Part shown: one piece after another, positions 2 through 52,576 of the stretch
Layout: the number at the start of each line of letters is the position of its first letter
How positions within the stretch are numbered: the first letter of the stretch is position 1
Origin: a virus
DNA length: 60,962 nt
Virus record (IMG/VR): IMGVR_UViG_3300023184_000132
Coordinates: 1 to 60,962 of that record
Strand: one strand, 5' to 3'
Notes under the pieces: generated by a model
Seen by the model: only the letters and a program-made list of their open reading frames with translations
Database searches by the model: none
Told to the model about the DNA's origin: nothing
Made by a program: the position numbers and the translations under genes

Positions 2-1507
2 AGCACCACTATTATTGTGGAGGACTCAAAAGCAGGATGGGCAAAGTCCTACAAGGAATTGGTGTCGCTCCTAATCGGTGGACAAATTCCTAAGTGGGAC
101 TTAACCAAACTTCGTCCTGCGGGCGCAAGATTGAAAACATTTGGTGGGCGTGCAAGTGGGCCAGGGCCTTTGGATGAATTGTTTCGTTTCACATCAGAAA
201 GTTTTAAGCGTGCAGCAGGACGCAAACTTACATCTATTGAATGCCATGATATTGTGTGTAAGATTGCGGAAGTGGTTGTGGTAGGCGGTGTTCGCCGTTC
301 CGCACTTATTTCACTGTCCAATCTGGCAGACGAAAAGATGCGTGATGCAAAAACAGGCGCATGGTGGAACGAGAATCCTCAACGAGCCCTCGCAAACAAC
401 TCTATTGCATACAAATCAAAACCTGATATCGGAATCTTTATGGAAGAGTGGATAAGTCTTTACAAGTCCAAGAGTGGTGAACGCGGCATTTTCAATCGTG
501 AAGCAGCCAGAAAAACTGTGGAGAAATTGGGTGATCGTCGTGATCCGAACCATGAGTGGGGCTGCAATCCTTGCAGTGAAATTTTACTGCGTGATCGTGA
601 GTTCTGCAACTTGTCCGAGGTTGTGGTTCGTGCTGATGATACAGAAGAATCACTTAAGCGCAAGATTCGTATTGCCACAATCTTAGGAACATTTCAGTCG
701 TCACTTACACACTTTCCGTATCTGTCCAGTGAGTGGAAACGGAACTGTGAAGAGGAAGCCTTGCTTGGAGTTTCTCTTACAGGTATCTTGGACAATCCGA
801 TGATGAGTGAAGTGTGTGAGGAAACAGAAACCCTTCTAGCACGATTGCGCGAGAGTGCAGTTGCGGTGAATCGAGATTTTGCACGGCGTTTAGGAATCAA
901 TCCTGCTGCTGCTATTACTTGTGTGAAACCGAGTGGCACAATTTCACAATTAGTGGACTCGGCAAGTGGTATTCATGCGCGTCATTCTGAATATTATATT
1001 CGCACAGTTCGTGCGGATCGCAAAGATCCCCTGTGTCAACTAATGATTGACAAAGGATTTCCGCACGAGCCTGATGTTACCAAGCCTGACTCGGTAGAGG
1101 TGTTTTCGTTTCCTATGCAAGCGGTTGGATCGGTTACACGCCGAGACATGACTGCATTGCAACACCTAGAGTTGTGGTTGCAGTATCAACGCCATTGGTC
1201 GGAACACAAACCGTCAATCACTGTAAGCATACGAGACCATGAGTGGTTGGAAGTAGGCGCATGGGTCTACAAAAACTTTGATGAGATTTCAGGAATTAGT
1301 TTTTTGCCGTATTCAGACCATACCTATCGCCAGGCACCGTATACCGAATGCTCTAAAGAAGAGTATGAAGCACTACAGGTTCGCATTCCTAAGGGCGTGG
1401 ATTGGAGTGACCTAAAGAACTACGAGAAAACTGATCAAACTACAGGCACACAAGAACTCGCATGTTCAGCAGGTTCGTGTGAACTTGTGGATTTGGTTAA
1501 GAGTTAA
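2..1507 (+). CDS. nrdJ: Class II (B12-dependent) ribonucleotide reductase, C-terminal part
   Basis: This enzyme reduces ribonucleotides to deoxyribonucleotides using adenosylcobalamin, feeding phage DNA synthesis. The gene is cut by the window edge. The frame is open from base 2 and reads family-like sequence (STTIIVEDSKAGW) before the first possible GTG at 17, so that GTG is not the true start. About 500 residues are visible. The NPCSEI motif (near residue 190) matches the active-site Asn-Cys-Glu motif of monomeric class II enzymes such as Lactobacillus RTPR. A PSGT motif follows, and the C-terminus has the Cys pair of ACSAGSC that re-reduces the active site. RTPR is about 740 aa, so roughly 240 residues lie upstream. 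A RuvC-like gene follows 15 bases later. Family assignment is firm; substrate level (NDP or NTP) is not resolved. Confidence 0.93.
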   Translation, partial: STTIIVEDSKAGWAKSYKELVSLLIGGQIPKWDLTKLRPAGARLKTFGGRASGPGPLDELFRFTSESFKRAAGRKLTSIECHDIVCKIAEVVVVGGVRRSALISLSNLADEKMRDAKTGAWWNENPQRALANNSIAYKSKPDIGIFMEEWISLYKSKSGERGIFNREAARKTVEKLGDRRDPNHEWGCNPCSEILLRDREFCNLSEVVVRADDTEESLKRKIRIATILGTFQSSLTHFPYLSSEWKRNCEEEALLGVSLTGILDNPMMSEVCEETETLLARLRESAVAVNRDFARRLGINPAAAITCVKPSGTISQLVDSASGIHARHSEYYIRTVRADRKDPLCQLMIDKGFPHEPDVTKPDSVEVFSFPMQAVGSVTRRDMTALQHLELWLQYQRHWSEHKPSITVSIRDHEWLEVGAWVYKNFDEISGISFLPYSDHTYRQAPYTECSKEEYEALQVRIPKGVDWSDLKNYEKTDQTTGTQELACSAGSCELVDLVKS

Positions 1508-2424: not shown

Positions 2425-2949
2425 TTATGCTGTCCTTTGTGCTAAGTAATATTTGCAAGAAACTACAGATCCATTAAAATTACCACAAACGCCTCTGCTT
2501 CTCCACACACCTGGAAGTTTAGCATAGAACTCACTTTGTATTTCGTTGCCGTCTGCCCAATGAAATGCTTGTTGTGTATTAGCATCTTTACCACTACGAA
2601 TATACACATTATTTAGGATAGTGTTCACTCTTGGTCCTTTTTCCGTAAAAAGAGAATTACCCTCTTCTGCTGAACAGACAACCGACACAGAAATAATAGA
2701 GCCGACAGGGTAGTCAGAATCGTGTACAGTGCAAGTATCTGATGCTAGGCAAGGAGTTTGCAATGCAGAATCTCCTGCCTCTATACTTTGTTTGGTTTGA
2801 TTCGTTTGAGTTGTAATGATTTGTAGTATTTCAGATTTCCAATCCACTAAAATTTTCTCTGTTGCCGTCAGAAGTTTATGCACTTCTCCCTCTGTGTGCT
2901 TTTTTGCCTCAAACAAATAGGAAATATACTCTGAAGTTCTGTCTATCAT
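2425..2949 (-). CDS. Tail-fibre-associated protein, coiled-coil N-terminus
   Basis: A 174-aa protein. I choose ATG at 2949 (MIDRTSEY) because it overlaps the stop of the upstream 1160-aa gene as ATGA; a start six codons earlier would give a longer overlap. Residues 1-60 are helical and heptad-like (EGEVHKLLTATEKILVDWK). The C-terminal half is beta-rich with four to five cysteines, and the segment LPGVWRSRGVCGNF resembles the terminal domain of many phage fibres (LxGxWRxxG). It may be a short fibre or an adhesin cap. I do not recognise a named family. Confidence 0.55.
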   Translation of the reverse strand: MIDRTSEYISYLFEAKKHTEGEVHKLLTATEKILVDWKSEILQIITTQTNQTKQSIEAGDSALQTPCLASDTCTVHDSDYPVGSIISVSVVCSAEEGNSLFTEKGPRVNTILNNVYIRSGKDANTQQAFHWADGNEIQSEFYAKLPGVWRSRGVCGNFNGSVVSCKYYLAQRTA

Positions 2950-5900
2950 TTTAATAGTTCTTTCCAAGACTGTAATTCCATGTTGGTAGAAACAACTCTA
3001 TAGTACCAATTTACAGGAACAACACTTGTCAAGGTTACTGTTTCTGTGGAAGCCTCAGGAACAGACCATACGGATCTAGCATACGATTGTGTCACTGAGT
3101 TGCTAGAAATATATGCAACAGGATCAAAATCTTTACAGATGTCTGATAGACTAGAGCCTACTAAGAGTGCAGTTCCTGCATCGTTTCCTACAGAAAACCC
3201 ATTGCCACTTACAACTGCGTAATGTATTCCACCACTACCAGTGTGTAGTTTAGTTACACTAGAAGGAGTGAGCAGATTTGCAGGAACTCCTGTATAATTA
3301 TTTTCATCGCGTTCTCCTCCCCAAACCACAATAGATCCGTCCGATTTTAGTGCAATAGAAGATTCGTTGCTTGCAGCAACAGACACTATTCCAGAACCAG
3401 CACCAAGAGATACACCTAAAATTTGTGGTGGTGTGTTACCAGTTGCTATGGCAGGTGTTGCGTTTCTATCACCTGCACCATTGTATCCCAAACACTGTCC
3501 GCTTCGGTTTTGTCCCCAACAAACAACTGTTCCATCCGACTTGAGTGCAATAGTATGATACCCTCCAGCAGCAATGTCTATAACACCAGAAAGTGCTGCG
3601 GTTGGTACTGCGCCTTCTCCTAGTATGTTGCTTCCCCAAGAAACAACTGAACCGTCGTGTAATAATGCTACTGTGTGTGATTGACCTGCGGATATTTTAC
3701 GAACATTACCAAGAACATTACCACCAATTACCACGGGAGTAAGTCCGTCATAAGCTGCAGAAGTAATGGCAGATCCATTAAGTGCTGTTCCTCTACACTG
3801 GCCTTCAAAGTTTCTTCCCCAACACACAACAGTTCCATCAGTTTTTAGTGCACAAAAGTGTTGGCTACCAGCACTGATTGATGTAACATTAGATTGTGCT
3901 GCTACAGGAACAAGAACCAAAACACTCTCGATAGCGGTTGTGGGTATACCCCAAGCAACAACCGAACCGTTTCTTGCGTCACTAATTAATGCGGAAAGAA
4001 TGCTGTATGTTCCTGCCACACCAATAGCATTAGAAAGTGCTTCTGTTGGAACAGTTAATTGTTGACTATTGTTTTTTCCCCAAACTAAAACTTTTCCGTT
4101 TTTAATTGCCATAGTGTTCCAAGCTGATATTGCTACTTGAGAAATATTAGAAAGAGCTTCTGTGGGAACTATAGTCTGTCCAAAATTAAGTAATGTATCA
4201 GATAAAGGCACTCCCCAACTTGCCACTGCGTTGTTTACCACAAGAGCAGATTTACCCTTTAACGCAATACTTACAGGAAGGTCTAGTTCATTTGTATTAT
4301 GGTAAACACCAACAGATTGAGACGGCAACATTTCTGCAGTGCTACTTACTACTCTTTGAAGTAGTTTATTCTGCCACACACCATTTTGGTTTCTGTAATA
4401 CAAACTTAATGCAGCCGCAATTCTGGTTTGTAATAGTGTTAAATTTGGTTCAATAACAACAGAATACAACTGCAATACTGTTGCATCTGTGTATTTTTTT
4501 GCAAGGTCTATCCACAACAGATCTTCTGCATCAATAAAATCTTTTAGGTTTAGCAGTATATAATTGTCTGCGTTGTCCACATATATCTGAGATGCGGCTA
4601 CAGAACTTGTAGCAGGAACTTGGGACAGTATGATATACTGATTGTATACAGTTGCTCTAAAACCAGAAACCTGAGATAGAAAATTTAAATCTCTTGATCC
4701 AAGTGTTTCTATTGCGTTAACATGAAGATCTCCGTCTCCAGATTCTCCTGTATCTACACCTTGACATTCGTATACCTTGCATCCGCAAGCATCAATACTT
4801 ATTACTGTTGCAGTAAATCCAGAAGCACACTCAGGAGGAAGCGGACAGGGAGTAGGAGGTGTGGGTGTGCACGGCCCAATAATAAGATTGTGAAAAGAAC
4901 CTGCAGAAATAGCAGTAACACCAGTTTGTGCATAGGTGGGAGTCTGACAATTGTTTATATCTACAGTGCAACATCCAGTATCACAATGATCTCCCCAAGT
5001 AATAACTTTACCACCTTTTAGTGCCTGAGTGTGGTATCCATTAACAGATATTGCAGTAACCTCGGCAAAGGCTGTGCTTGGTACACTTGCGGCCGCACCC
5101 TGACCCCAACAAACAACTTGTCCGTTTTGTAGTGCACAACTGTGGAACGATCCTTTTGCAATAGCAGTAACACCAGAACCAAGATTTTTTACCCAATAGT
5201 CTCCTAATACACTAGACTTAATATTTTTTCTGTTACCATCGTCTGGTGATACCCAAACTGTTTCTTCTACTGTTCCTAATTGGTTTTGAATATTACTTCC
5301 CCAACCAATAACAGTTCCATCAGATTTTAAAGCAAGACAACCGTCTCCTTGAGCAGAAATTGCAATCACACCAAAAAGTGCTTCTGCTGGAACATTAAGT
5401 ACACCAGACCAAACATTATACAATTCATAATTTCCGTTACGCAGTACACGATTACCCCAAGCATACACCCTTCCGTTTTTAAGAGCAAGTGCATGACTAA
5501 ACGATATTGAAATTGCAGTGACACCACCAGTAGTCAGTTCTGTAGGAATTTCACTAATGCCTGTGCTGTATGGGTCGTCACCTGCTGCGCCCCAATAAAA
5601 AACTTTTCCTTGACTTAAAGCAAGACTACCCCAAGTTCCAGCTGCTATGTCTGAAACTATAGGAAGACCAAGAGGAACTGAGGATTGGTTTTGGGTGTCT
5701 CGACCCCAAGCAATAACTTTACCTGTATTTGTAAGAGCAAGACTGTGGTACGAGCCTGCCGAAATTTTAACAACACTAGAATCTACTGTTTTTGGTATGA
5801 CGCATTGGTTGTAGAAGTTCCATCCCCATGCGGATACAGAAACCGGCCCGTTGCAGGTTCTGTTGTTTCCTAATACTGATGGAATATTCGGACATTCACT

Positions 5901-6428
5901 GTCAGATCCGCCAATATAACCTCCACCACCTCCTGTACCACTAGAACTGAGCCACTGTGATATTCCTGCAGGATCTACTGGATCACTTCCATAGCAAAAA
6001 GTACACAATTCGCAACCTGGACATGCTCCGCATTGCGGCCCTAAGCAACTTTGTATTGAACTTCCATCAGGCTGTCCGTTTGCGTCTACTCCAAAAGGAA
6101 CAGTGCACGGACACCCACCGCCACCACCAGTAGTAGGATTACCAGTACAAACAGGACAAGTCTGACACCCTGTGGTGTAATCCGCACATGCTGCTTCATC
6201 GCAGGCTACGCAAACATCAAGACCTTTGGTGTTGTTTGTATTGGGAGTAAGTCTGCTAAACAGGTACTTGGATTGTACACTTCTTTTTAGTATATTTTTA
6301 TAGTCTGCACAAATTTCAGAATCTCCACCTAAATCCTGTGCACAATAAACACAAAGCCAACACTGTGTGCATTCTGTTGCTGTGCAGTCAAAACAGGTTT
6401 CGCAGACATCTGTATTGGTAAACGCCAT
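2946..6428 (-). CDS. Large tail protein with two RCC1-type seven-repeat sets and a Cys-rich N-terminus
   Basis: An 1160-aa fibre-cassette protein. Order of parts: residues 1-160, cysteine-rich (CETCFDCTATECTQC and similar); about 195-515, seven RCC1-type repeats each with an xxWG strand (SAWG, IAWG, FYWG, YAWG, IGWG, VCWG, ITWG) and a SAGSYHSLAL-like strand; 515-560, Cys/Pro linker; about 565-735, a module like the 281-aa neighbour (LHVNAIETLG, QIYVDNADN, AKKYTDA); about 735-1065, seven more repeats (ASWG, LVWG, VAWG, VCWG, VSWG, VCWG, VVWG); 1065-1160, a C-terminal domain also shared with that neighbour (SLSDICKDFDP, WYYRVVS, SWKE). RCC1 proteins are seven-bladed propellers, so two propellers are expected. 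A receptor-binding role is inferred from position. RCC1 repeats are rare in phage virions. Confidence 0.85.
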   Translation of the reverse strand: MAFTNTDVCETCFDCTATECTQCWLCVYCAQDLGGDSEICADYKNILKRSVQSKYLFSRLTPNTNNTKGLDVCVACDEAACADYTTGCQTCPVCTGNPTTGGGGGCPCTVPFGVDANGQPDGSSIQSCLGPQCGACPGCELCTFCYGSDPVDPAGISQWLSSSGTGGGGGYIGGSDSECPNIPSVLGNNRTCNGPVSVSAWGWNFYNQCVIPKTVDSSVVKISAGSYHSLALTNTGKVIAWGRDTQNQSSVPLGLPIVSDIAAGTWGSLALSQGKVFYWGAAGDDPYSTGISEIPTELTTGGVTAISISFSHALALKNGRVYAWGNRVLRNGNYELYNVWSGVLNVPAEALFGVIAISAQGDGCLALKSDGTVIGWGSNIQNQLGTVEETVWVSPDDGNRKNIKSSVLGDYWVKNLGSGVTAIAKGSFHSCALQNGQVVCWGQGAAASVPSTAFAEVTAISVNGYHTQALKGGKVITWGDHCDTGCCTVDINNCQTPTYAQTGVTAISAGSFHNLIIGPCTPTPPTPCPLPPECASGFTATVISIDACGCKVYECQGVDTGESGDGDLHVNAIETLGSRDLNFLSQVSGFRATVYNQYIILSQVPATSSVAASQIYVDNADNYILLNLKDFIDAEDLLWIDLAKKYTDATVLQLYSVVIEPNLTLLQTRIAAALSLYYRNQNGVWQNKLLQRVVSSTAEMLPSQSVGVYHNTNELDLPVSIALKGKSALVVNNAVASWGVPLSDTLLNFGQTIVPTEALSNISQVAISAWNTMAIKNGKVLVWGKNNSQQLTVPTEALSNAIGVAGTYSILSALISDARNGSVVAWGIPTTAIESVLVLVPVAAQSNVTSISAGSQHFCALKTDGTVVCWGRNFEGQCRGTALNGSAITSAAYDGLTPVVIGGNVLGNVRKISAGQSHTVALLHDGSVVSWGSNILGEGAVPTAALSGVIDIAAGGYHTIALKSDGTVVCWGQNRSGQCLGYNGAGDRNATPAIATGNTPPQILGVSLGAGSGIVSVAASNESSIALKSDGSIVVWGGERDENNYTGVPANLLTPSSVTKLHTGSGGIHYAVVSGNGFSVGNDAGTALLVGSSLSDICKDFDPVAYISSNSVTQSYARSVWSVPEASTETVTLTSVVPVNWYYRVVSTNMELQSWKELLK

Positions 6429-8817: not shown

Positions 8818-11800
8818 TTAAAGAATCTTCCACTTAAACCCACTTTGAATCACAACAGTTTTTCCACTTACAATCATAATTCCACTACCAGGATCTACTG
8901 TGTACACACCTTGTGGATTTTGTGGGAAAAGTGCCGAGTTCATTGTTAGTCCAGTATTTATGGTGGTTAAACCTGTGGAATTAAACATTCCACCGTAAAA
9001 CATTCCTTGAACAGGAACAGTATTCCAAGGAGGCGCATTGCCTGTTGTGTTTCCGTCAAAAATATGTGGCCCAATCTTAACACCAGATCCACGAACTTCA
9101 AGAGACATGGTTGGAGTGTCTGTTCGGATTCCCACCATTCCTGCATCATTTCCCGATCCTCCCACAACAGTAACTCCCCAATTTCTGTTGATACCAGTCA
9201 CACCTTCCACAGTTATTCTTATGTCACGATCAGGGCCGGCAACTATAAGTGCTTCTCCTGAATTTACTCCACTCATAAGTCGCAAATCATAATTTTCCGT
9301 GGTAAGTCCAGGCCCACCCTGATCAAAAGGAGTGGTCAGATCTATAATTCCACCCTGTGCACCACCAATTTTAACCTTACCCCATCCGTAAGGATTTTCC
9401 ACTTCTACTTCTGCGCCTTGTGAAGTAAGAGATCCTGCAAAGAATTTGTACTTACCCATTCCTGCAAAAGTCAATCCTCCACCCACAACAGGAGAGTAGT
9501 GTGTGTCTCCTGTTTCTCTTGACAAAGATTGTGCGTTATAACGAGCATTTGCTCTTCTGCTTGCTGTCATACCAGAATCAGTATGCAATTCCTTTTGTGG
9601 TTGCATGTCATGACGAACATAACGATCATCGTGATTATGACCTGTTAAAATAAGTGCATTTACTTCTGGTCTTGCTCGGATAATCCAATAGGTTACTACG
9701 GCAGGAGGATAATGATAGTCTCCACTGATTCCACCACGAGGAATATCTGCAGTAGATCCGCAACCTGTGCAACCGTGACAACCTGAGCATCCTATGCAGT
9801 CTGCAATACCGTCTATACGATAGCAAGGAGTTATAGGATCGCAACAAGCACATGCAGTGCAACCGCCAGGAGGAGTGGTAGGATCACATATATTTTGTTT
9901 CAACCAAACGCAACTTATGTGTCCATTGTTTACTGATCCTGAATACCCTTGAGCAGCACATGCCTGACACCACTGTCCACCCTGCTTACAGGTGGAACAA
10001 TCTTTGCATTGCTGTCCGTTTACTGATCCACTGCAGCCTTGATTTTCGCATCTGTAGCAGTCACACACAGGACACGATTGTATGAAGCATTGATCTGTAG
10101 CATCGTTGCACTTAGTGCTATTGCACCCGATACAAACATCAGGAGTAGTTCCCTCGTCACCAGTACTTGTAGTAGTGGTTGTTGTGCCTGTTCCGTTACC
10201 ACCGTTACCCCCACCTATAACAACACCACCATTGCCACGGTTGCCACCACCTAATCCACCACCTGGTACAAAGTTAGAAGCAACAAGACCTGCTGATGGA
10301 GAATTTAAAACAGGTTGAACCAATCCATCAAGAACATTATAGGCAAGAGTGTGTAACACATCTCCCACCATCATCATTGATCCGTTGTCTCTGAAATCAG
10401 CACCTGCTCCTGCACCAAATACAGTTCTATTGCGAAGATCAGGAACCAGAACAGTTCCCCAAGTACTTAGTACATCAGTTCTGTGTCTGCCGTATACTCG
10501 AACAGAGTAGTCTCTAGGTGCATTTTGTGCTTGACTAAGCAACAAAGAAAATTGATTTCTTGTATAACCAGATTGTGTGTCTGTTCCGTCTATAAACTTG
10601 CGTAAAGCAGCAGTAATCTGATATGTTCCGTCTACGGAATATACTCTTGCGTCACGGTATGCAATAGTTGCGTTAGTTACTTTGGAATATATTTCTATAC
10701 GAATCAAATCGCCTTGAGAAGTTGATGGAGAAGGGGATGATTGGAAATTTCTATTTCCTCCCTTGATGTACAATTCCACAGCGTTATTACCAGCACCACT
10801 AGGTGTGCCTTCTTCGTCGGCAAAGTTTAGGGTTTTAAAACTAGAAACTGAGGCGTCTGCATAGTATTTTTGATCATCAAATCTTCCGTTTGCAGTTCCT
10901 ATTACTTTATACAGTTCTTGATATACTCCTGGACGCAATTTTCTTCCGTCGCAAAGAATCCACTCGTCACTGAGTTCGTTTAGTGTGCCAGAATACGGCA
11001 TAATGCTTCCAACAGGAACTAAACCTTGAGCGTATATTTCGTCTGTGGCAGAACCGCCCATCATAAATCCAGGTTGTGATAATACCACACCTGTTGCTTT
11101 TCTATTGGACGGCGATCCTGTGATACTTACAGGAATAAACATGTTTTTTGCAATGTAGTATGGATCTCCAAAAGTTGCACCAAAATCTGAAGTTAACCCG
11201 CCATTCAGATTCATCATAAGAGCAACACCTGGCGTAACATCGCCAGGAACTGGAATTGTAGCAAGCCCAGTGTTTACATACACAAATTCGTTGGCATTCA
11301 ATACTTCAACAACAATTCCAACGGTGTCTGCCAAATCAACAGAAAGTGGACTTGCTTTAATATATTTTGTTGCCGTTGCACCAACTGCGTAAGAAACTTC
11401 ACGAACAATGCAATTTCCTGCAGTTAACCCGTGAGTAGTTTGTTTCACACGAATACGATTAGAATCAGATTCCAACCAATTTGAATTTATTCTTCCACGA
11501 CTATCAGAAATAGGAATGCTGTATGCAGTAGAGCCTGCAAATCCTTCGTTTGGTTCTGCAGCACCACCGTAAGGACTACCTGTAGTTGCTCCTGCACCAT
11601 CCAAATAATCAGCATTAAATCCCTTTGCCCACATATTGCTAGTTCCGCCTGATGTGGTGGAGAAACTATAAGGGCCAGTAGTCAAACCGTATATTGTGGA
11701 TAAGGTGAATTCTGTTGAAGATTGTCCTGTTCCGTAGGACAAGACCAATGGAGATCCTGTAGCACCATAATTATGAGAAACTCCCCACACAGACTTGTTG

Positions 11801-13989
11801 TCGTAAGTAAGTCTTATTGTTGGATTTCCTGCTTGACCACTTGTTCCGATAAAAGTAAAATCGTTTTTTGCGTCGCCTGCAGTAAGAGATTTGTTGCGGT
11901 AATTTCGTGCAGTAATAAATCCTGTTTCCGTATCTACACCTAAGTTTTTATAAGAAATCCATGCTTCACTAGAACTTTCCCAAACAAAAGTTTTATCTCC
12001 ACTAAGACCCTTTACTGTCAGTCCTGCTCCATCAAGTTGAGCATCGGTAAAGAAATCTGTGGTAGCACCATCAAACGACAACAGAGTAAAGGATGTTGGG
12101 CCAGTAGGAGATTTAAATTTAACTTTTCCACCTGTTTGAAAATCTTCAGCTCCACCTGCACTAAACATAGAACCGATGCGTACCTGAGCAGTCATGCCAC
12201 TTACTGGCCCTGTAATACTCTTAACCACACCAATTACTTCTGCGGTTGAGCCTGGATTTGCTGCATAATCGTCATAGAACGCACTTGCACCTACAATATT
12301 CAACGCATACAATTGTCGAATTGCCGCAGAAGGGCCTGTAATAGTAATAAGACCTGATGTTTGGTATGCTAGTTCAATATTTTTATCTTCTATACGAAGA
12401 TCGTTGGAAGCAATAAAACTATTATTTCCACCTACAAGCAAATTACCGTTAATTGTAACATTACCGTCCATTTCAAGGGCAGTAAATTCCAATTTTGGAG
12501 GCAGCATAAATCGAGCTTGAACAGATTTTGGTGTTCCGTCTTTCACGGTGGAAACATCACTCATATCTTTGAATATAAACAAATCGTTTCCTGTAACTCC
12601 ATTCATACCAGAGTTTATTGGAAGTGTTCCAGGATCTACAAACATCTTACCTCTAAAATTATTAGAAGTAGTTGTATTGGAAGGGTGTCCCCAAGTTATA
12701 CCAGGCCCGTTTTTAAAACCAATTCCGACAACACCATTGTAATTACAGTTGTCTTTGCCACTTACAAGTTCTATACCTGTGAGTCCTGCTATTTCGTACA
12801 GATTTAATGGATTTACTGCGTCAATAATTTGATTGGTTCTGTCGTACCATGTATGAAAAGTGTCAGAAAGAACAAGTCGGTCTATATTGACAAGATCTTG
12901 GCAACCAACTGCGGTTCCTCCTTTACCCTGCAAAGGATCGCAACAACTCACGCAACCACATGCTGTTCCACCACCACCACCACCAATACCAGTTGCTCCG
13001 TCTGCTCCTGCAGGCCCAACCACAGTTCCTGCGTTGATTGTTGTGGAGTCTGAAAGAACAAGTATAAGATTGCCGTCAGGAATACTAACATACGCATTAA
13101 CAACATTTACTCCAACACCAGTTGCTCCTGTTGCTCCTGTTGCACCTCGAACTCCTGTTGTGCCTGTTGCTCCTGCAACTCCTGTTGCTCCAACTACTGT
13201 TCCTGCTTCTATATTAGAAGTTAATCCAGTAGAGTAATCTATTATAGTAAGGATAAGTTTATTGCCAGTAACTATGGCAGAGTAAATAGAAGTTCCTGTA
13301 GTTCCTTGAGAACCTGTAACTCCTACGCTTCCTGTTGATCCTTTTAATCCTTGTGCACCAGTTGCACCTGTTGGGCCTTGTGCTCCTGTTGAGCCTGTTG
13401 CGCCTTGAACTCCTGTTGAGCCAGTTGCACCTGTTGGGCCTTGTGCTCCTGTTGAACCTGTTGAGCCTTGCGCGCCAGTTGCGCCTTGCGGGCCAGTTGG
13501 GCCTGTTGTACCTGTTGCGCCTGTTGCTCCCTTTAGTGCTGCAGCGCCAGGTATACCTTGCGGTCCTGTTGCTCCTGTAGGGCCTGCGGGGCCTTGTACA
13601 CCTGTTGCTCCTGTAGGGCCAGCACAACACGGGCCTGTTGGGCCAGTTGCACCTGCGGGGCCTTGTACACCTGTTGCTCCTGTAGGGCCAGCAGATCCTG
13701 TTGCGCCTGCAGGGCCTGTTGCACCTTTTGAACCAGTTCCACCTGTTGGGCCTGGACTGCCACCTCCCGATATCTTTGCAGTACAAACAATAGTTGTGGT
13801 GCTTCCATTTCCGTCTATGGTTCTAGCACAATCACAGAAAGCTAAACAGTCGGCGTATACTGCATCATCGTATTGGGTAATGCAGGTGGCAATATCTGCC
13901 ATACATGTTGCACAAGAAATACCAGAGTTATAAACTCCTCCATTTAGAATATTGTCATCGCAAAAACCTGCGGGTGGTGTGGCTGGCAT
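8818..13989 (-). CDS. Long tail fibre: collagen-like rod, collar domain with Cys-rich insertion
   Basis: A 1723-aa adhesin. Residues 1-70 are Cys-rich (about ten Cys). Residues 80-232 form a collagen-like Gly-X-Y rod dominated by GAT, GPT and GAQ triplets, interrupted near 120 by GPCCAG and near 150 by GAAALKG; short collagen-like stretches recur near 262-290 and 325. Residues 350-980 are beta-rich shaft. A collar domain starts near 990 (VGSIMPYSG...WILCDGRKL) and reaches [10 protein letters not shown] near 1190. Residues about 1285-1416 are a Cys-rich block including [14 protein letters not shown], lying before the domain's closing strand (YWIIRARP). Then come GHNHDDRY and a beta-rich C-terminus. 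Phage collagen-like rods form trimers. It starts on a TAATG overlap with the upstream coiled-coil gene. Confidence 0.85.
13292..13752 (-). repeat. Collagen-like coding repeat
   Basis: A run of Gly-X-Y triplets rich in GAT, GPT, GAQ and GST within the 1723-aa fibre. At DNA level it is a degenerate 9-bp periodic sequence with local near-repeats such as the [13 protein letters not shown]-coding copies. Such tracts are prone to length variation by recombination. Confidence 0.85.
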
Positions 13990-21810: not shown

Positions 21811-24800
21811 TCAAATCAATTGATAATTAAATTCCTTTATTGTGGTGCTGCCTGCAATAACGGCATTTGATGTGTTTCGGAAATAGATCTTCAGTCTATA
21901 GATGCAGTTATTGTTTGGAATTTGAATTCCTTGGTAGGCAAAAGACCCACCAAACACTCCTCTGCCTAAACTTACAGCACCTGGCTCTGACAATGGGTGT
22001 TGTGGGTTTATAAACGGAAAAGTGATTTTTACAGTGTTTGCAGAAGTTGCCATTGGCCCAACTGATGCCATTTGGTACTCTTTACCTGTGGAATCCACGA
22101 TAAACAAATCTGCCCACATGCTTATTGCTGCATAGTAACTAAGATACAGCATGGTAGACAATCCTGCTGAACTTCCAGTCTCACTTATAACACCAGTAAC
22201 ATCAATGTAAATTGATTTGTTGTTGGGTAAACTGCCCACAATATTGTTGGAATCTGTGCTCCAATCTGCACGATCAACATATACTCCGTTTATAGTGGTA
22301 GCCTTTACTTGAGGAACTGGTGGTGGCTGAACATCGGAATTCTTGCAGTCAAATTCAGGCCCAACAGGCATGGTTAAGAATGATCTGATTGTAACTTTTC
22401 GGAAATCGGAGTATGCAATTTCTTTACCTATATTTAAAAATTCACTAATACCACCTGTTTCTCCGCCAGTTCCTCCGTTAGCATTGCAACCACAAGTTTC
22501 TTTGCAATATGTGTGGTTTAGTCTATATGCGTATACGCAATCCGCAGGAACGCACTGACTGCAATTTTGGTAAGGTTCTTGAGTATTGCAATTCACACAC
22601 AAATCACAACCGTCTCCTACGCATCCTCCTGCAACGCAAGCATTACAATCTTGAGTTGAAGTGCATCCACACTCATAGCAGAATTCGTGATTTATGTTGA
22701 ATTGGTCATTACACTCGTTTTGTGTACACTGATTACACAGGGTATACCTTTGTTGACACCCGCAACCCAAACAAAAATCGTGATTTATAGAAGTATCAAA
22801 ATCGCAATCGCCTTGCAAGCACTCGTTGCAGTTTGTGTATTTTCCGTCTCCACCTCCACCATAACAATCAGGACACTGTGTTCTGCAAAGAATACCGTTG
22901 CAATTTAATCGTAAACACTCTGCACAATCTACTACTTCAGAAACACATCCGCAAGTTTTGCAGAATTGATTATTAACACTTGATACATCATCACAGTCTA
23001 ATTGTGTGCATTGATTGCAATTGCTGTAAATATTTGAGCATCCACAATCCACACAAAACTGATGGTTTGCACTAGAAGTAATACCACAATCTCCTGTTGT
23101 ACACTGGCTACACAGGGAGTATCGTTGATCGCATCCTCCACAGTTGTAGCATCCAGAGCAACCAACGCAATCGTATCCACCAGTTATATTAAAGCAATCG
23201 TAAATTTCCGAACAGCATCCGCACCCTGTGCATCCTGTTGCTCCTGTTATACCACACCCTGTGCATCCTGCACACCCTGAACATCCCTTACAGTCGTAAA
23301 TTCCTGTAACCGTATTGTAACACGGTAAGTCCAACCATGTGCTGCATACCGCGCAACCAGTAGGCCCTGCGGATACTCCTGTAATTCCACACCCTGTACA
23401 ACCACCGTATCCTGAGCATCCCTTACAGTCGTAAATTCCTATAAAGGTGTTCCAACACTGAGTTCCGTTTGCAGTTATACCGCAGCAGTTTGCACCTGTG
23501 CAGGAAGGCTCTATTACAGAACATCCTGTGCATTGCCAGCATCCTGAGCATCCTACACAATCGTAGGCAGATGGAATATTTGTTGTATAGCACGGATCTA
23601 TTTGAGAACAACGAGCACATCCTGTTGCAGGTGCAGTTACTCCACACCCTGTAAATCCAAAGCATCCTGAACATCCTATACAATCTTTAAGTCCTGTTAC
23701 TCTGTTGTAACCACCAGTCATGCATTTTTGGCATGGTACACTAGCAGTTCTGCCACAACCTGTGCAACTTGCACACCCTGAGCAACCCACACAGTCGTAA
23801 AAACCTGTAACAATATTAAAGCATGCTCCTGTGGTACTAGAACTGCAGCAACCACAACCTGTGCAAGAAGTGGGGCCTGTAACACTGCAACCAATACAAC
23901 CGTGACAACCTGAGCAACCTTTGCAATCATATATTCCGTTAACAGTAAAGCATGGATTTGTTGGACTACACAATGCACACCCTGTTAGACTTGCAGTCAT
24001 TCCACAACCAGTGCAACCGTTAAACCCTGAGCACCCTAAACAATCGTACATGCCAGTTACAATATTAAAGCAAAGTGTTCCGTTTCCTGTAGTACCACAG
24101 CATGCAGTTCCTCCTGAACCAGAGCATCCTGTAGACCCTGTTGTTCCTGTCATTCCACATCCTGTGAATCCAAAGCATCCTGAACATCCTATACAATCTT
24201 TAAGTCCTGTTACTCTGTTGTAACCACCAGTCATACAGCACTGACATCCAACACAAGGAGCAATAGTAGTGCAACCGTCACACCCAAAGCATCCTGAGCA
24301 ACCCGCGCAGTCATAAATTCCCGCAAGAGTATAGCATGGAAGGTCGGCACGACACAAATTACAGCCAGTTGCTCCTGTTGCTCCTCTAGAACAACCAGTA
24401 AACCCATGACATCCTGAGCAACCTTTGCAGTCATAAATTCCTTGTACTGTGTATCCTAGATTTGTTGAACTACACAAGGCACATCCTGTTGCTCCTGCGG
24501 TTTGACCGCATCCTGTACAACCGTAACATCCTGAGCAACCCTGACAATCTAATTGTCCTGTCCAAACATTTACGCACGGCACTCCATAGGAGCAAGATTC
24601 GCATGGATCGGTTGGTGTTACTTCGCACCCTGTGCAACCACCGTATCCTGAACAACCCGCACAGTCGTAAATTCCGTAGAAAGTGTTAAAGCATTGTGTG
24701 CCGTTTGCAAGCAAACCGCAACAAAGAGCTCCACTGCAAGTTGCACCAGTTACACCACAACCAGTACACCCAAAACATCCTGAGCACCCTTGGCAATCGT

Positions 24801-27800
24801 AAATTCCTTGTACAGTATAGCATCCGTTTTGGCAACAGGCACAACCAGTACAAGAGCAGTTTCCTGTTTCTGTGAGTGTCCCACCGTAAATATAATCTTG
24901 CTCTATTGGTTCAAACACAACAGGAATCAATCCCATATCAATAACAGACTTGATGATTGGCCCTCGTGCCATTTTTATTTCGTGCGCGCAACCACTGCTG
25001 CCACGAACTACTAGGTCTATAGAATTAGAAAAATTCATTCCGATCCAAGTTTCGTGATCTGGTGTGAAATAATTTGCAAGACCAAAAGAAGAATCTACTT
25101 GAGTTATTCCACTAGGCGAATAAAAATCAATATAAGTAGGATTCATTCTGTGTAGATAATCGCAAGCTCTTCCTTCAGTAACATATTTAATGGATGGATG
25201 AGAAACAGTTGTAATTAGAGAGTAATTATCTACGGTACTTGGACTTACTGCTGAAAACTTATTCCAAGCATCTAATCCAGCTATTCCCTTAGATATTCCA
25301 CGAGTATTATTTGTTATATTATCCACAATACTTAAATTGTTTTGAAGAATAGTAACATCAAAACCAGTAGAACCCATTGGATACAAATTAGAATTGTCAA
25401 ATTCTATATTGGAGTATATACTATTTCCTAACCAAAATCCTACTTGTTTTGTGTCATCTAAAGCGTCTACCATTGTTTTCATAATGGTTTCTGCATTGTC
25501 CATATTATTAGTAATAGAAGAGGTTACTCCTGTTGGGGAAGTGTATACTCTGTTTGGTTCTGTCCAGTGTGTAACAGATCTTGGTGGATAGTTTGCGCCT
25601 ATTTTGTAGGAAAGACCACTTGGTGTCCATATCATGGCACGATCCCAACCCTTATTTTCTAATTGGTCTTTAATATATGCAGCAACACCAGTGTATCCAA
25701 TGGTATTAGGATAACCACCGACAAGAGTATAGTTTACACTATTTTTGTCCCATCCGTATGGGTTATAATTTGATGCTGTTGGACTTGGTTCGATAAGGTG
25801 TTCTAATGCTAACGGTATTCCTCGAACTGGACGATAGTCGGGTATGTAAGTTTGTGGAGGATACCTACGATCTAAAAATTCTTTATAAGGAGTAAGTGTT
25901 TCTATTACTGCTGCAGAATCTGTTCCTATTCCGATAGAACCCATTCCTATTAGATTTGCTTGAAATCCTGCTACTGGTGGAATTTTTGCAAATTTTATAA
26001 TTACTTTATAGGTTTTGCTTTGACCTGCTGCTAATTTTGCTTGTCCGTTTTGCGTAATTTGACTTTCGTTCCATGTAGCAATCTGAAAACTAAATCTGTC
26101 TTGATATGCTTTATAAAATGCGTTTCCTTGTTGTGCTAATATAACACTCGGTGCATCTTGTGGAGGAAACGCAACCAAAGAAATTTCGTGATTGTCGTCG
26201 GAAGGAGAATACTCTGTAAGTGCTACACTAACAGCAAAATTATTGTCCACGCAACATTCACCACTAAATTTAGTTTTTGCAAGATGAATTGGAGAATACA
26301 GTTGACTTGGATAATTTGAAGAAAAAAGACGAGAATTTTTATCTAAGTCTATAAATGCACCCACTCCTGATCCAAAAGAACCAGCGTTAATTCTTGTGTC
26401 AAAATAAGAAACACTTTCTCCTAGATCCATTGGTGGTAAATCTGGCCACGCCATGTATTTTTCCGTGGTGCATGTGTTGTTATAGGCATAACTTATTTCT
26501 AAAGAATTGTCTGCGTCATTTTGTGCCACACTTATACTAGGAGCAATTTCCGCAGAAGAGCAAGAGGTTGGTGTAGTTTTTGGTTTCCAACCATTAATAA
26601 TATTTCTGTTACCAGGCCCGTATACATTCCATGCGTTTTCTATGGCATTGAATTGAATACTAAAGTCTCCGTCCAATCCAGTATTGTACAAACCATTCCA
26701 ATAAGTAAGTGCAGCAGACCACTGAGAAGCACCCATATTGTCTATCATACTCCACACATGGTCTACTTCTGCTGCTGTTGTTCTTTGGAAATTACCACTT
26801 GCTTGACCGTAGGTTACCAATTCAAAGGTTGCTCCCACCGCACCAAAACTAATAATGTCTCCAGGAGTAAATATGTGTCCCCATTTTGGTCGTTGGTTTG
26901 TAGGAGAAGGATCGGTGTTTGCAGAAATTTTGGCTAATTCTGCAAAAGTTCCTACAGGATTGGGTACACCCATGCTTGTTGGGTACGGAGCATTTCCACT
27001 TGTCATTCCGTGCGTGATTCCGTCCATCATCATAAGGTCTCGGTCACGATTCTCGTAAGGAGGAATACCATCGTAATTTACGGTAGTACTACTGAACCAC
27101 ATACTGCTATCAGCTCCTTCATACTGACCAAAAATTGGGCCACCAACAAAGAAGTACGGTTCTACTGCAATTTCTACTTCGTTTGGTTTGTTAGGAACTG
27201 ATCTTACTGCTTTAACATAACCAATTCTGTCTGCCGTATTCCATCCCTTATCTTTATAAGAGTTTCCGTCAGAATATGAAAATACAGTGGACGATCCTGT
27301 TAATGAATTAAACAGGGGATTTGAAATAATAGCACCAGTTACTCCTACTCCTGCTCTCTTTCGGACAGGATTGGTTGGTCTTTTGTCGTCTGCTGGTCTT
27401 GTGTCGCGATGATTAAACGCAAAAGTAGTTCCAGGCACCATACCCATAGGAATTGTCCACCTTCCGTCATTAGATGTTTTCTTTACACGAAAATTCCATT
27501 CACGAAGTCTTGACCAATCCAAAACCTTTACGGCAGGATTATCGGTATCTGGCACAAACCATGTAGGGAAAGTGGAACTTAAATACGAATATTTGTGGGG
27601 TTCTAGATAGTTGTATTGTGCAGCATATTGACCAGTAACTCCATCTAAAAATGCTTGATACGCAACAAGATTTTTACGACAATGGTACATTAGACTGCTT
27701 GTTTCTAAGGGTAGAGGAGAGGATGATGTTGGCCATGTAGGAGAAATGTCTCCTCCTTGCCACGGATCACCGTCATTAAATTGACCTCCCGCAATGCGCC

Positions 27801-30800
27801 AACTAACTCTAGCAGTACCATTTTTTCCTACAATATGACTGCCGCCTGTGGGTGCTCCTGGTCTACCGAATGCTGTATTCCAATCCCAATAAGGTTCGTA
27901 TCCGTGTCCTAGTGTGAATGGATTTTTTTTCCAATCTATAACATTTCCGTTCGCATCCATTACTTCTACAGTTTGTGGATTTTCTATACTAATTCCTAAT
28001 CCAAACTGACAAGCATAAGTTTGCTCGCCTGTCCACATGTAAAAACCGTCTACTGCTCCTTTGCTTTGTCCAGAAAGAGAAGGAGCGATATATAAATCTA
28101 CAAATTGGTTTGGTGTATAATAACTAAGATCTTGGACAGAGGTTATATACGCACCGTAAGTTAAGCCTCTAGCGTATCCACCGTCACCAGTACCTTGCGT
28201 GAAGGCCTTGTTAGAGATAAAAGGAAGAATGTATTTTTTGGTAGGCTCAATTCCTGCGTCTGACTGCTCTTGAAATATTTGACTTTTCCAACTTGACAGC
28301 ATTGAAATAGTTTGGCTTGCGATAAATTTCTCAAAAACCAAATCTCTAGTAGCAGTATAGAAAGAAGGTTGCCAACCAGACACCGCCTTGCAAAAAGGAT
28401 ACCATTTTTCTTTGTGTAGTTTTTTAGAAAACTCTGTATTTTCTACTGCTTGGTTTGGATATACAGTGCTGTATAGGTTTCTTCTTGCTTCTACAGATGC
28501 TTGTCCCACCACTCTGTTTGGATCTAGTGAGTGCAAAACTATTCTGCCGTCCCAAACACAGGTCGGACAAGTCGCAGAAGGAGCATAAGAAGTGTAAGTA
28601 AGACCTGACGGTAAAGTAAGTGTTTCTCCTATTGATCCTCTTGCAAATTCGCCTCTTCCTCGGAATCCAGGATATCCATAATAATTCTGAATATTTCTAG
28701 GTGCTACGCCTGGATGACCGTAATTTGCAAATATGGCATTTGGAAAATTCTCTTGTAATCCTCCAAAAGTTGTTCCGTCTGGACTGACTCCTCCAACAAA
28801 CATAGGAATTAAAATTTTATCTCTAATAAAATTACCCACAGAATTTGGATTGTCTGGATCTGCTATTCCTTCAGACTCGGAAAATAAAGCATCCCAACTC
28901 TCAGTGTTCATGCTAATAAGACCAGTATAGTCTGCAGGGAATGGGTTTAGATTATCCCATCCTCCACCAGAAATTCCATTCCAATCTGGTCGTATCTCGC
29001 CCCTCAAGGATCTTACCATTTTAGAAACTGCTTCTTTAGTTGTAGCAGTCAAGCCACTTATTCCTAAGTGTCCAGTTTCCTTGCAATTGTTGCACGGTAA
29101 TCCGTATCCACCTGTAACTGAACGATAAGTTAAATAGTGCGAACTTGTTGCAGAATCCCAATAAGCAAAATGGTTATAAGATAATGGAGGAGGAACTACA
29201 GCAGGTGTTGTGAGTAATTTGTTGGGGTCTTGTGACAAATAATTCTTGGTTGTGTCCGACAATCCTCCAGTCTGAATGGTTGCTTGACTAGGAGGAAGTA
29301 TTCCTATTACATTTTTGCCGTCAGCAGAAAATTCGTATTGAGCGGGAATATCAAAATTTACTGCTTTTCCTGCATTGCTTGGATTAGTAGAAAGTAATTG
29401 TGATTCGTTAGAATTGTCGGAACTTAATTTTTCAAAATTCTTTTGACCTGCGTATGTAAACACATTGTCGTAGTAAAATATAGGCAGCAGTTTTCCTGGT
29501 TGAACAAGACTAGATTTGTTTGGAGCAAAAGATACAGTTTGTGGTTGGTAATACGATTGTGTATAATCTTTAAGAGGATTATAATTCAGCATAACATATC
29601 GTTCACCAGAAGTAAATCCTCCTGACCACTCCTCTCGGTTTGCAGTAGACGCTTCTGTCCATTCCATCCAGTATCCTGTAGTTCCTGTGGACTGACCTGT
29701 CACTGTCATTCCAATTTGGTTTCTTCCTCCAAGATCAGTTAAGAATTCTGTTTTAAGATCGTATGGAATTCTAGCAACTACTGGCCCACGAATTCTACGG
29801 TTTGGATGCTGATATATGATCCAAAACGGATCTGCATTTTGAAATCCTGCAGTTTTTAGTGCAACCAAAGGATTCATGAATTCTCTTGAAAAAGTTACAG
29901 GATTTCCTATACTTTTATAATACTCTTCTGCGGTGGTGCCGTTCAGCAACGACAATGATATATCTCCCGAATCAATAGTACCGTTCTCGTCTAGGTCGTT
30001 TTGTATAGTCTTGTTGTGTTGCGTTGGATCGTATCCTGCAAGCAATCCTGTATACGGATCAGAAAACCAAGGAGACAAATCGTCGTTGGTTATGAATGTA
30101 TATGGAGTATAGTGACCAATAATAGGAACATCGTACTCAAAAAGAGAAGTGCTTTGTTGAAGATCCGCAACCGCACACCGTTTAATTTGAACCTTACCAA
30201 AGAATGCTAAGCCTGCAGGATTCAACAATCGTTTAAGAATGTCTCTGTAACGATCAATTGTTACTTCACTTAAAATTACATACGAGTAATTTTGATAGAA
30301 ATGATTGTCCTGCATTACTTTGTTTGTGCTTAGTCTGCCGTCATTGTTTGCGTAGTAACCCGCATACTCTGATACTCCACCCACCGAAACAGATCCAGTA
30401 AATCCAGTACCAGATTCAGACGATACAGTAATTGTTGGAGCAATCTTGTAGTTTACTCCAAAGTTGTCAATTATAAATTTGCGTATTTTTCCGTTTGTGT
30501 CCACTTCTCCAACTCTGCCTGCCGCACGAACTCCTGTGTCTCCAGCAGCAGGAGTAAAAATAATTCTGTCCCCTGTTTTATAGCCAGTTCCTGCATCATT
30601 AATTGTAATTTTACCAAGTACAGAAAATACTCTATTTTCTTTACGAACAACCCCGTCTGCATCGGCAAATTCTATACCGTAATTACCAGAAACAAATTCA
30701 CCGTTTACACCACCCAAAAACAGTTCTGATATATCGTTTGTGCCTACTCGATATGTACTAACATCCAACACACGAGCACTAGCAAGGATACCACCGTCAT

Positions 30801-31311
30801 CGTTTCTTTGAATTACGGTTCTACCCACAGAGTCGTAAATTGTTTTTCCTGTGTTGTTGCCTACTTTAATAGATCTGCGAACTACCCATTTTCCGTCAGA
30901 CAACTTTAGAATGTCGTTTTTAGGATAGTAAAATTCCACAGAAGTGTCGTATAGAATTCTGAAAAGAAAGTCATAGGTTTTCTCTGTACCTTTTGCTCGG
31001 TAGAAACCTTTGATGTTTTTCATTAATTTAATTGCGTCTACAGGTTTTTTTGTTACATCCGATACTGCCATAGTTTCAGGAAAACCAAACAAATATTCAT
31101 TTTTAAAATTAGCAATAAACTCGTCAAGAGTTCTGTCAATATCTACAACATTTCCTAGTTTTTGCGGAGATCGCAAATAAGTATTGTCTGCATCCAACCA
31201 CTCGTAATAAGATGTAAGGAATGCAACAAGGGTAGGATGATCCACCCTAACAAATTCGGGTAACTGTCCTGCTATAAATGTAGAGATTGGGTTTGAGTTG
31301 TTGTTAGTCAT
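21811..31311 (-). CDS. Giant gp7-position baseplate/tail protein with 800-residue cysteine array
   Basis: A 3166-aa protein, the largest here. Residues 1-370 carry a module common in T4-like aquatic phages next to gp6 (QLPEFVRVDHPTLVAFLTSY, IKGFYRAKGTEKTYDFLF, YYPKNDILKLSDGKW), so it probably anchors in the baseplate wedge where T4 has gp7. Near 440 lies one EF-hand/dockerin-like loop (DLDENGTIDSGD). Residues 500-2110 are aromatic-rich and globular; parts look like alpha/beta barrels but no family is assigned. Residues about 2150-2943 are the cysteine array: 14 units with DCxGCSG, then 7 units C-x2-C-x4-C-x10-C-x2-C-x-C. Residues 2950-3166 are a beta-rich cap. No signal peptide is evident. 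Function of the array is unknown; a stiff extended adhesin is the leading inference. Confidence 0.85.
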   Translation of the reverse strand: MTNNNSNPISTFIAGQLPEFVRVDHPTLVAFLTSYYEWLDADNTYLRSPQKLGNVVDIDRTLDEFIANFKNEYLFGFPETMAVSDVTKKPVDAIKLMKNIKGFYRAKGTEKTYDFLFRILYDTSVEFYYPKNDILKLSDGKWVVRRSIKVGNNTGKTIYDSVGRTVIQRNDDGGILASARVLDVSTYRVGTNDISELFLGGVNGEFVSGNYGIEFADADGVVRKENRVFSVLGKITINDAGTGYKTGDRIIFTPAAGDTGVRAAGRVGEVDTNGKIRKFIIDNFGVNYKIAPTITVSSESGTGFTGSVSVGGVSEYAGYYANNDGRLSTNKVMQDNHFYQNYSYVILSEVTIDRYRDILKRLLNPAGLAFFGKVQIKRCAVADLQQSTSLFEYDVPIIGHYTPYTFITNDDLSPWFSDPYTGLLAGYDPTQHNKTIQNDLDENGTIDSGDISLSLLNGTTAEEYYKSIGNPVTFSREFMNPLVALKTAGFQNADPFWIIYQHPNRRIRGPVVARIPYDLKTEFLTDLGGRNQIGMTVTGQSTGTTGYWMEWTEASTANREEWSGGFTSGERYVMLNYNPLKDYTQSYYQPQTVSFAPNKSSLVQPGKLLPIFYYDNVFTYAGQKNFEKLSSDNSNESQLLSTNPSNAGKAVNFDIPAQYEFSADGKNVIGILPPSQATIQTGGLSDTTKNYLSQDPNKLLTTPAVVPPPLSYNHFAYWDSATSSHYLTYRSVTGGYGLPCNNCKETGHLGISGLTATTKEAVSKMVRSLRGEIRPDWNGISGGGWDNLNPFPADYTGLISMNTESWDALFSESEGIADPDNPNSVGNFIRDKILIPMFVGGVSPDGTTFGGLQENFPNAIFANYGHPGVAPRNIQNYYGYPGFRGRGEFARGSIGETLTLPSGLTYTSYAPSATCPTCVWDGRIVLHSLDPNRVVGQASVEARRNLYSTVYPNQAVENTEFSKKLHKEKWYPFCKAVSGWQPSFYTATRDLVFEKFIASQTISMLSSWKSQIFQEQSDAGIEPTKKYILPFISNKAFTQGTGDGGYARGLTYGAYITSVQDLSYYTPNQFVDLYIAPSLSGQSKGAVDGFYMWTGEQTYACQFGLGISIENPQTVEVMDANGNVIDWKKNPFTLGHGYEPYWDWNTAFGRPGAPTGGSHIVGKNGTARVSWRIAGGQFNDGDPWQGGDISPTWPTSSSPLPLETSSLMYHCRKNLVAYQAFLDGVTGQYAAQYNYLEPHKYSYLSSTFPTWFVPDTDNPAVKVLDWSRLREWNFRVKKTSNDGRWTIPMGMVPGTTFAFNHRDTRPADDKRPTNPVRKRAGVGVTGAIISNPLFNSLTGSSTVFSYSDGNSYKDKGWNTADRIGYVKAVRSVPNKPNEVEIAVEPYFFVGGPIFGQYEGADSSMWFSSTTVNYDGIPPYENRDRDLMMMDGITHGMTSGNAPYPTSMGVPNPVGTFAELAKISANTDPSPTNQRPKWGHIFTPGDIISFGAVGATFELVTYGQASGNFQRTTAAEVDHVWSMIDNMGASQWSAALTYWNGLYNTGLDGDFSIQFNAIENAWNVYGPGNRNIINGWKPKTTPTSCSSAEIAPSISVAQNDADNSLEISYAYNNTCTTEKYMAWPDLPPMDLGESVSYFDTRINAGSFGSGVGAFIDLDKNSRLFSSNYPSQLYSPIHLAKTKFSGECCVDNNFAVSVALTEYSPSDDNHEISLVAFPPQDAPSVILAQQGNAFYKAYQDRFSFQIATWNESQITQNGQAKLAAGQSKTYKVIIKFAKIPPVAGFQANLIGMGSIGIGTDSAAVIETLTPYKEFLDRRYPPQTYIPDYRPVRGIPLALEHLIEPSPTASNYNPYGWDKNSVNYTLVGGYPNTIGYTGVAAYIKDQLENKGWDRAMIWTPSGLSYKIGANYPPRSVTHWTEPNRVYTSPTGVTSSITNNMDNAETIMKTMVDALDDTKQVGFWLGNSIYSNIEFDNSNLYPMGSTGFDVTILQNNLSIVDNITNNTRGISKGIAGLDAWNKFSAVSPSTVDNYSLITTVSHPSIKYVTEGRACDYLHRMNPTYIDFYSPSGITQVDSSFGLANYFTPDHETWIGMNFSNSIDLVVRGSSGCAHEIKMARGPIIKSVIDMGLIPVVFEPIEQDYIYGGTLTETGNCSCTGCACCQNGCYTVQGIYDCQGCSGCFGCTGCGVTGATCSGALCCGLLANGTQCFNTFYGIYDCAGCSGYGGCTGCEVTPTDPCESCSYGVPCVNVWTGQLDCQGCSGCYGCTGCGQTAGATGCALCSSTNLGYTVQGIYDCKGCSGCHGFTGCSRGATGATGCNLCRADLPCYTLAGIYDCAGCSGCFGCDGCTTIAPCVGCQCCMTGGYNRVTGLKDCIGCSGCFGFTGCGMTGTTGSTGCSGSGGTACCGTTGNGTLCFNIVTGMYDCLGCSGFNGCTGCGMTASLTGCALCSPTNPCFTVNGIYDCKGCSGCHGCIGCSVTGPTSCTGCGCCSSSTTGACFNIVTGFYDCVGCSGCASCTGCGRTASVPCQKCMTGGYNRVTGLKDCIGCSGCFGFTGCGVTAPATGCARCSQIDPCYTTNIPSAYDCVGCSGCWQCTGCSVIEPSCTGANCCGITANGTQCWNTFIGIYDCKGCSGYGGCTGCGITGVSAGPTGCAVCSTWLDLPCYNTVTGIYDCKGCSGCAGCTGCGITGATGCTGCGCCSEIYDCFNITGGYDCVGCSGCYNCGGCDQRYSLCSQCTTGDCGITSSANHQFCVDCGCSNIYSNCNQCTQLDCDDVSSVNNQFCKTCGCVSEVVDCAECLRLNCNGILCRTQCPDCYGGGGDGKYTNCNECLQGDCDFDTSINHDFCLGCGCQQRYTLCNQCTQNECNDQFNINHEFCYECGCTSTQDCNACVAGGCVGDGCDLCVNCNTQEPYQNCSQCVPADCVYAYRLNHTYCKETCGCNANGGTGGETGGISEFLNIGKEIAYSDFRKVTIRSFLTMPVGPEFDCKNSDVQPPPVPQVKATTINGVYVDRADWSTDSNNIVGSLPNNKSIYIDVTGVISETGSSAGLSTMLYLSYYAAISMWADLFIVDSTGKEYQMASVGPMATSANTVKITFPFINPQHPLSEPGAVSLGRGVFGGSFAYQGIQIPNNNCIYRLKIYFRNTSNAVIAGSTTIKEFNYQLI
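23654..23721 (-). repeat. 68-bp perfect direct repeat, copy A
   Basis: Identical to 24167-24234 by base comparison, and lies inside the cysteine array (units with [16 protein letters not shown]). Third-position identity over 68 bp suggests a recent duplication or gene conversion. Confidence 0.8.
24167..24234 (-). repeat. 68-bp perfect direct repeat, copy B
   Basis: Second copy, 513 bases from copy A. Recombination between the two would remove a whole number of codons (513 = 171 x 3) and leave the frame open. Confidence 0.8.
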
Positions 31312-52542: not shown

Positions 52543-52576
52543 CTAGCGATCCGCCAATTACAATATGGAGAATACA

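Follow-up and report, generated by a model that had tools for sequence, protein, structure and literature searches.

A probable disulfide-rich arm on a giant gp7-type baseplate wedge protein, confined to one clade of phages

Chains of small units, each held together by disulfide bonds, are a familiar design among eukaryotic surface proteins, the EGF and granulin repeats and the Giardia VSPs being well-known examples. The subject here is a viral protein that invites comparison with them: a 3166-residue product encoded on the minus strand, at 21811–31311, of a 60,962-nucleotide stretch of DNA (IMG/VR record IMGVR_UViG_3300023184_000132, positions 1 to 60,962; this whole stretch is called the window below), which carries a long array of cysteine-rich units. 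The likeness to the eukaryotic chains is one of working principle only, and the array differs from them in giving no Pfam match. As to disulfides in a contractile tail, the closest experimental precedent is the Agrobacterium phage Milano, in which inter-subunit disulfides are found among wedge proteins, tailspike and fibres and have to be reduced before contraction, and in which the structural proteins contain 2.1% cysteine (PMC10811340). Milano is comparable in that it is a contractile phage with a raised cysteine content and with disulfides in its tail (wedges, fibres and tailspike), but its cysteines are scattered and bond between subunits, whereas those of the array lie in tandem small domains, make up about 20% of the residues and would bond internally. 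The third point of reference is gp7 of phage T4, a protein of 1032 residues; the N-terminal 400 residues of the array protein match wedge families, T4 gp7 itself weakly, and its gene occupies the same slot between gp6 and gp8.

The reading frame is open throughout, and the protein falls into five parts. Residues 1–416 (30064..31311, minus strand, as for all parts) form a gp7-like baseplate wedge module with a single cysteine, followed by a long extension (residues 417–2151; 24859..30063) for which no family was found. After these come the two halves of the array, a class-1 region of 14 units ending in DCxGCSGxxxxxGC (residues 2152–2727; 23131..24858; 115 cysteines) and a class-2 region of seven six-cysteine units in the order long-long-short-long-long-short-long (residues 2734–2942; 22486..23112; 42 cysteines), and finally a C-terminal domain, also without a family (residues 2943–3166; 21811..22485). 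Of the 173 cysteines in the protein, 157 lie within residues 2152–2942 (approximately 22486–24858), which amounts to about 20% across 790 residues and is far above chance. A first-pass annotation of the window had arrived by hand at about 157 cysteines in 14 class-1 and seven six-cysteine units, and these figures proved to be exact. The 14 DCxGCSG motifs start at positions from residue 2172 to residue 2714, and each class-1 unit of the window protein contains between 6 and 11 cysteines, its core (CxxCxxCxxCxxC) being a 14-residue part of a unit of 37–54 residues.

Identification of the N-terminus rests on several concordant matches: to PF23786 (E=5e-9, 36 bits against a cutoff of 27), to the baseplate wedge family phrog_17744 (E=4e-57) and, in a profile comparison covering 26 residues, to T4 gp7 (E=5.8e-4), the best two PDB matches both being gp7. 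Together with the position of the gene, directly after gp6 and ahead of gp8, these bear out and sharpen the earlier suggestion of a gp6-adjacent baseplate module. In size the protein does not agree with T4 gp7, being 3166 residues long as against 1032, and since this is beyond the usual size of a gp7 it is treated here not as an ordinary gp7 but as a gp7-type protein that bears a new extension. In reference phages the protein in the gp6–gp8 slot has 607–896 residues and 0–1 cysteines. A wider sample of the slot was obtained by a profile scan for the module, which gave at least 80 contigs when the known array contigs were left out; among the 80 listed, untruncated slot frames had 357–1805 residues and 0–8 cysteines, and no array was present (cysteines never exceeded 4 per 100 residues or 8 per protein). 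A class-1 profile search of relatives without the array likewise gave nothing; it included no positive control, however, and the direct cysteine scan of the slot loci is the better evidence for absence. A tree built from 81 gp6 rows places the four array phages together in a single group with support of 100, adjoining L149, L150, L152, L153 and L165, whose slot frames have no more than six cysteines (those of L149 and L165 being cut by the contig end). Within this sample the array is restricted to one clade, with a sister clade in which gp7 is short and poor in cysteine.

Homologous arrays were found in IMG/VR using DNA patterns for the class-1 core. Three contigs carry them, 3300013372_003487 (G002), 3300017774_002294 (G003) and 3300008448_000780 (G004); a fourth, 3300032310_000441 (G005), has only the C-terminal end of the array protein, and a fifth (G001) has the fibre gene alone. 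Residues 1–2149 of the window protein align with their main matches in G002, G003 and G004 at 57–62% identity and without stops, but conservation is uneven along the chain: identity to the array relatives is 76–82% over residues 1–400, approximately 47–62% in the extension, 72–73% over the class-1 residues, where the motifs YDC, GCSG and TGC are retained, and 61–78% in the C-terminal domain, for which no match was found outside the array clade. The cysteines stand out further. All but one of the 157 in the array are also cysteine in both G003 and G004, compared with 355 of 633 (56%) non-cysteine array residues identical in all three phages, and the 42 class-2 cysteines are invariant across five phages. 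As codons at the 156 kept cysteines differ synonymously from those of the window at 57 positions in G003 and at 68 in G004 (37–44%), this retention points to strong purifying selection on the cysteines, and the array is no artefact.

The single long frame recurs in G003 (where it reaches the contig end) and in G004, so that the check on frame disruption proposed in the first-pass annotation found the frame intact in close relatives, with one clean split. This is in G002, which has a protein of 2359 residues, an 884-residue heparinase II/III-like gene product, and a 1606-residue protein comprising array and C-terminus. The gene lying between the split halves (PF07940; 18608–21262 of G002, minus strand, L106:608-3262) probably encodes a polysaccharide lyase that has entered the operon of baseplate genes. 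A related module of about 560–630 residues, belonging to no known family, is inserted in G002 and G003 at window residue ~1727 (L107:4631-6313 in G003, about 560 residues; the C-terminal part of L106:3269-10348 in G002), which makes this point, in front of the array, a hot spot for insertions. Unit number also varies: the survey of related metagenomic phages gave 14 class-1 units in the window, G003 and G004 and 18 in G002. Between G002 and G004 gp6 hardly differs, yet their arrays are of different length and only one of the two has the split gene: the arm evolves faster than the genes beside it. Within the array, a DNA-level tandem repeat search detected no repeats, because the class-1 units have diverged at that level (median nucleotide identity 57% over ~27 codons). 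Judged from such comparisons they are old, diverged repeats, apart from units 6 and 10, which are alike at 78 of 81 bases (96%) over 27 codons and represent a recent copy made inside the array.

The most informative property of the array is the parity of its cysteines. When it is cut after the last cysteine of each core, 62 of 63 complete class-1 units from five phages contain an even number (6, 8 or 10). The sole odd unit is window unit 1, with 11, and here C2152 (24856–24858, minus strand) occurs in the window only, without counterpart in G002, G003 or G004; the same is true of C2108 (24988–24990, minus strand), 44 residues upstream, so that the two apparently constitute one gained pair, with C2108 as the candidate partner of C2152. 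Losses follow the same rule. Defining slot c as the cysteine before the aromatic residue, g as the second cysteine of SGCxxC, a2 as the second cysteine of the unit and f as the cysteine of SGC, one finds that c and g are missing jointly in six units and singly in none, while a2 and f are missing jointly in 13 and singly in none. When slots were shuffled independently of one another, phage by phage, the observed number of even units was reached with probabilities of 0.004 (window), 0.0004 (G002), 0.001 (G003) and 0.0009 (G004), figures that overstate independence because the units are related by descent. In a control where each core was paired instead with the front half of the next unit, totals were even in only 3/13, 9/17, 5/13 and 5/13 cases. 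There are about five visible events, and none is an exception: loss of c–g in unit 10, loss of c–g in window unit 4, loss of a2–f in the long units, loss of two cysteines in window unit 10, and C2108/C2152, with window unit 6 copying unit 10. Even numbers, together with slot pairs that are lost only jointly, argue that the cysteines bond pairwise within units, and the pattern is a strong indication that these bonds are disulfides, with c bonded to g and a2 to f as the predicted partners.

A second carrier of such units lies elsewhere in the window. The open reading frame at 8818–13989 (minus strand) encodes a collagen-like, collar-domain tail fibre (PF01391, 53 bits; PF07484, 29 bits; both above cutoff), and so belongs with the known phage fibres of that kind, from which it differs in having an additional N-terminal stretch of eight cysteines ahead of the collagen-like region (13783..13962, minus strand) and a cysteine-rich insert (9760..10134, minus strand) that contains one class-1 unit (residues ~1373–1410) and class-2-like spacings. 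The class-1 unit sits near the collar domain, a host-contact part of the fibre. Of the 44 fibre cysteines, 39 recur in G001 as well as in G002, whereas homologues in the sister clade (G009 and G010) have 5–7 cysteines in total, and that of G009, when aligned, is without the cysteine-rich insert. On this comparison both carriers, gp7 arm and fibre, are cysteine-rich in the array clade and cysteine-poor in the sister clade.

Searches for a known family gave little. Neither Pfam nor NCBIfam matched the array, whether for EGF, granulin or other described disulfide repeats, and a PDB sequence search with class-1 and class-2 unit profiles found no match. AlphaFold models of three class-1 units (53 alignment rows) and of class 2 (5 rows) reached mean predicted local distance difference test scores (pLDDT) of 55 and 67, and Foldseek, run against the PDB for both and against BFVD for class 2, returned nothing, the models being poor. 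A tblastn search of 50,697 phage records with the array found no match, probably because low-complexity masking hides cysteine-rich sequence, which limits that search. With the same caveat, then, the first-pass opinion that no characterised phage tail protein has this design holds against Pfam, NCBIfam, the PDB, the phage records and the literature searched, no precedent for a disulfide-rich array in a phage tail protein having been found there. Nor was a cellular source found, as the class-1 pattern gave only eight isolated matches and no array in 84,980 bacterial and archaeal genomes, mostly in short chance frames; the class-2 pattern led back to the phage contigs already known and otherwise to unrelated single matches. 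For the extension and the C-terminal domain PDB and Pfam searches yielded nothing significant (Glyco_hydro_39_C, at E=0.06, being a hint only), and a reading by eye of two barrel-like enzyme domains in the extension was dropped for want of support from any tool.

In PHROG the array gave only weak matches, to collagen-like fibres and to a family of cysteine triplets. The latter is phrog_15341, five of whose triplets resemble the class-1 core (E=1e-6 to 0.1), but its members are mostly proteins of 100–400 residues with long unbroken triplets, whereas class 1 has only five-triplet cores; homology between the two is at most weakly indicated by the profile match. About 70 of the 82 matches to the first DNA pattern were set aside as being mostly triplet proteins of this general sort, a different thing from the array. 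Such (Cys-Ser-x)n proteins occur in about 70 viral loci (L009-L087), with up to 62 cysteines in 335 residues (examples are L060:5381-6385 and L072:8730-9935); two of them that were compared match phrog_15341 and phrog_31265, PHROGs without assigned function.

The reading we prefer, and hold to be reasonably probable, is that of a gp7-type wedge protein with a giant arm serving as a disulfide-stapled stalk, with a probable second role as multivalent adhesin. One phage lineage would have added this arm to its gp7-type protein, and the array would consist of 21 small domains in a row, each closed by three to five internal disulfides that form once the virion has left the reducing cytoplasm, after lysis. 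The chain would then be a stiff, protease-resistant stalk carrying the lineage-specific C-terminal domain from the baseplate toward the host surface or slime, present in the virion at six copies if it behaves like T4 gp7. The first-pass annotation had left it undecided whether the array oxidises into a rod or binds metal, and here the parity data favour oxidation, as pairwise gain and loss fits disulfides and not four-ligand metal sites. An array binding zinc, copper or iron in the manner of metallothioneins or zinc knuckles, whether structurally or for scavenging, is improbable: its CxxC, CxC and CC spacings are typical of metal sites, and there is the weak PHROG similarity to another cysteine-triplet family, but the cysteines are lost as c–g and a2–f rather than as adjacent CxxC knuckles, a Cys4 site would not survive the loss of two of its ligands, Pfam gave no match to a metal-binding family, and aromatic residues (Tyr, Phe or Trp) are kept in each unit, unlike in metallothioneins, whose clusters are cysteine-rich without aromatics. 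It is also unlikely that the array only sets the distance from the extension to the C-terminal domain, its sequence being free except for cysteine. Such a spacer would suit the variable unit number and the fact that no other residues come near the cysteines in conservation; against it, the class-1 region is more conserved than the extension that precedes it, and retains its YDC, GCSG and TGC motifs.

Milano itself suggests another alternative, in which disulfides between gp7 and fibre would keep the baseplate locked, to be opened by reductants of the host. Such a latch has been proposed for that phage, whose inter-subunit bonds must be broken before contraction (PMC10811340); gp7 and fibre gained cysteine modules in the same lineage here, and both hold a class-1 unit. 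This too is quite unlikely, given that parity and paired losses place the bonds within units and leave no class-1 cysteine spare for cross-links, that Milano has a modest cysteine excess rather than arrays of 20% cysteine, and that the gp7 module has only one cysteine. Least probable is that the array protein lies outside the infecting virion, either cleaved off or released at lysis as a free factor: in G002 the array half is indeed a separate gene, behind the lyase-like gene, but even there it remains in the gp6–gp8 structural slot, and in the window, G003 and G004 it shares one frame with the gp7 module.

Some results do weigh against a stapled stalk. The predicted models are poor and match no fold, so that structure lends no support to disulfide geometry, rod shape or a binding surface; the separate paired events are few, as units share descent; and the separate gene for the array in G002 implies that this phage, at least, can do without joining array and gp7 in one chain. 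We infer that the pairwise bond is a disulfide rather than some other, that oxidation follows lysis, and that the arm is in the virion as stalk or adhesin. A difference of 14 as against 18 units between phages of near-identical gp6 is as would be expected for a stalk of tunable length. Aquatic T4-like phages are known to have host-recognition regions that are large and variable (PMC7029224), and a host-contact role for the arm fits with these.

Three further genes of the window may be mentioned. Beside the fibre genes in the tail region there is an RCC1-repeat protein of 1160 residues (2946–6428, minus strand; PF13540, E=3e-65), whose N-terminal cysteine-rich stretch (5979..6404, minus strand) has one class-2-like spacing, a weak match; this start may be unrelated to the arrays. 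A glycosyltransferase family 2 gene (52565–53737, plus strand) lies near a collar-domain tail gene (53804–57832), and a fragment at 17–1507 (plus strand) is like B12-dependent ribonucleotide reductase, with weak matches to PF02867 and PF21995.

Taken more broadly, it is possible, though we put this forward tentatively, that the array comprises two new disulfide-rich domain families (class 1, with 6–10 cysteines in ~37–54 residues; class 2, with six cysteines) that one T4-like clade evolved or acquired and that found their way into two or more host-contact proteins (gp7 arm and collar fibre), making up an extracellular adhesion system of disulfide micro-domains, a strategy known from eukaryotic surface proteins and not known from phage tails. 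Since phages make their proteins in a reducing cytoplasm, a virion protein with dozens of disulfides would have to fold or harden after lysis, unless the cytoplasm of the host is unusual, and either outcome would be worth knowing. The pairwise loss of cysteines predicts specific bonding partners, which could be tested cheaply on a short fragment without the uncultured phage, and the units are a possible source of small, stable binding scaffolds. As for the phages themselves, the joint gain in gp7 and fibre would mean that one lineage has re-tooled its host-contact apparatus with a single kind of module.

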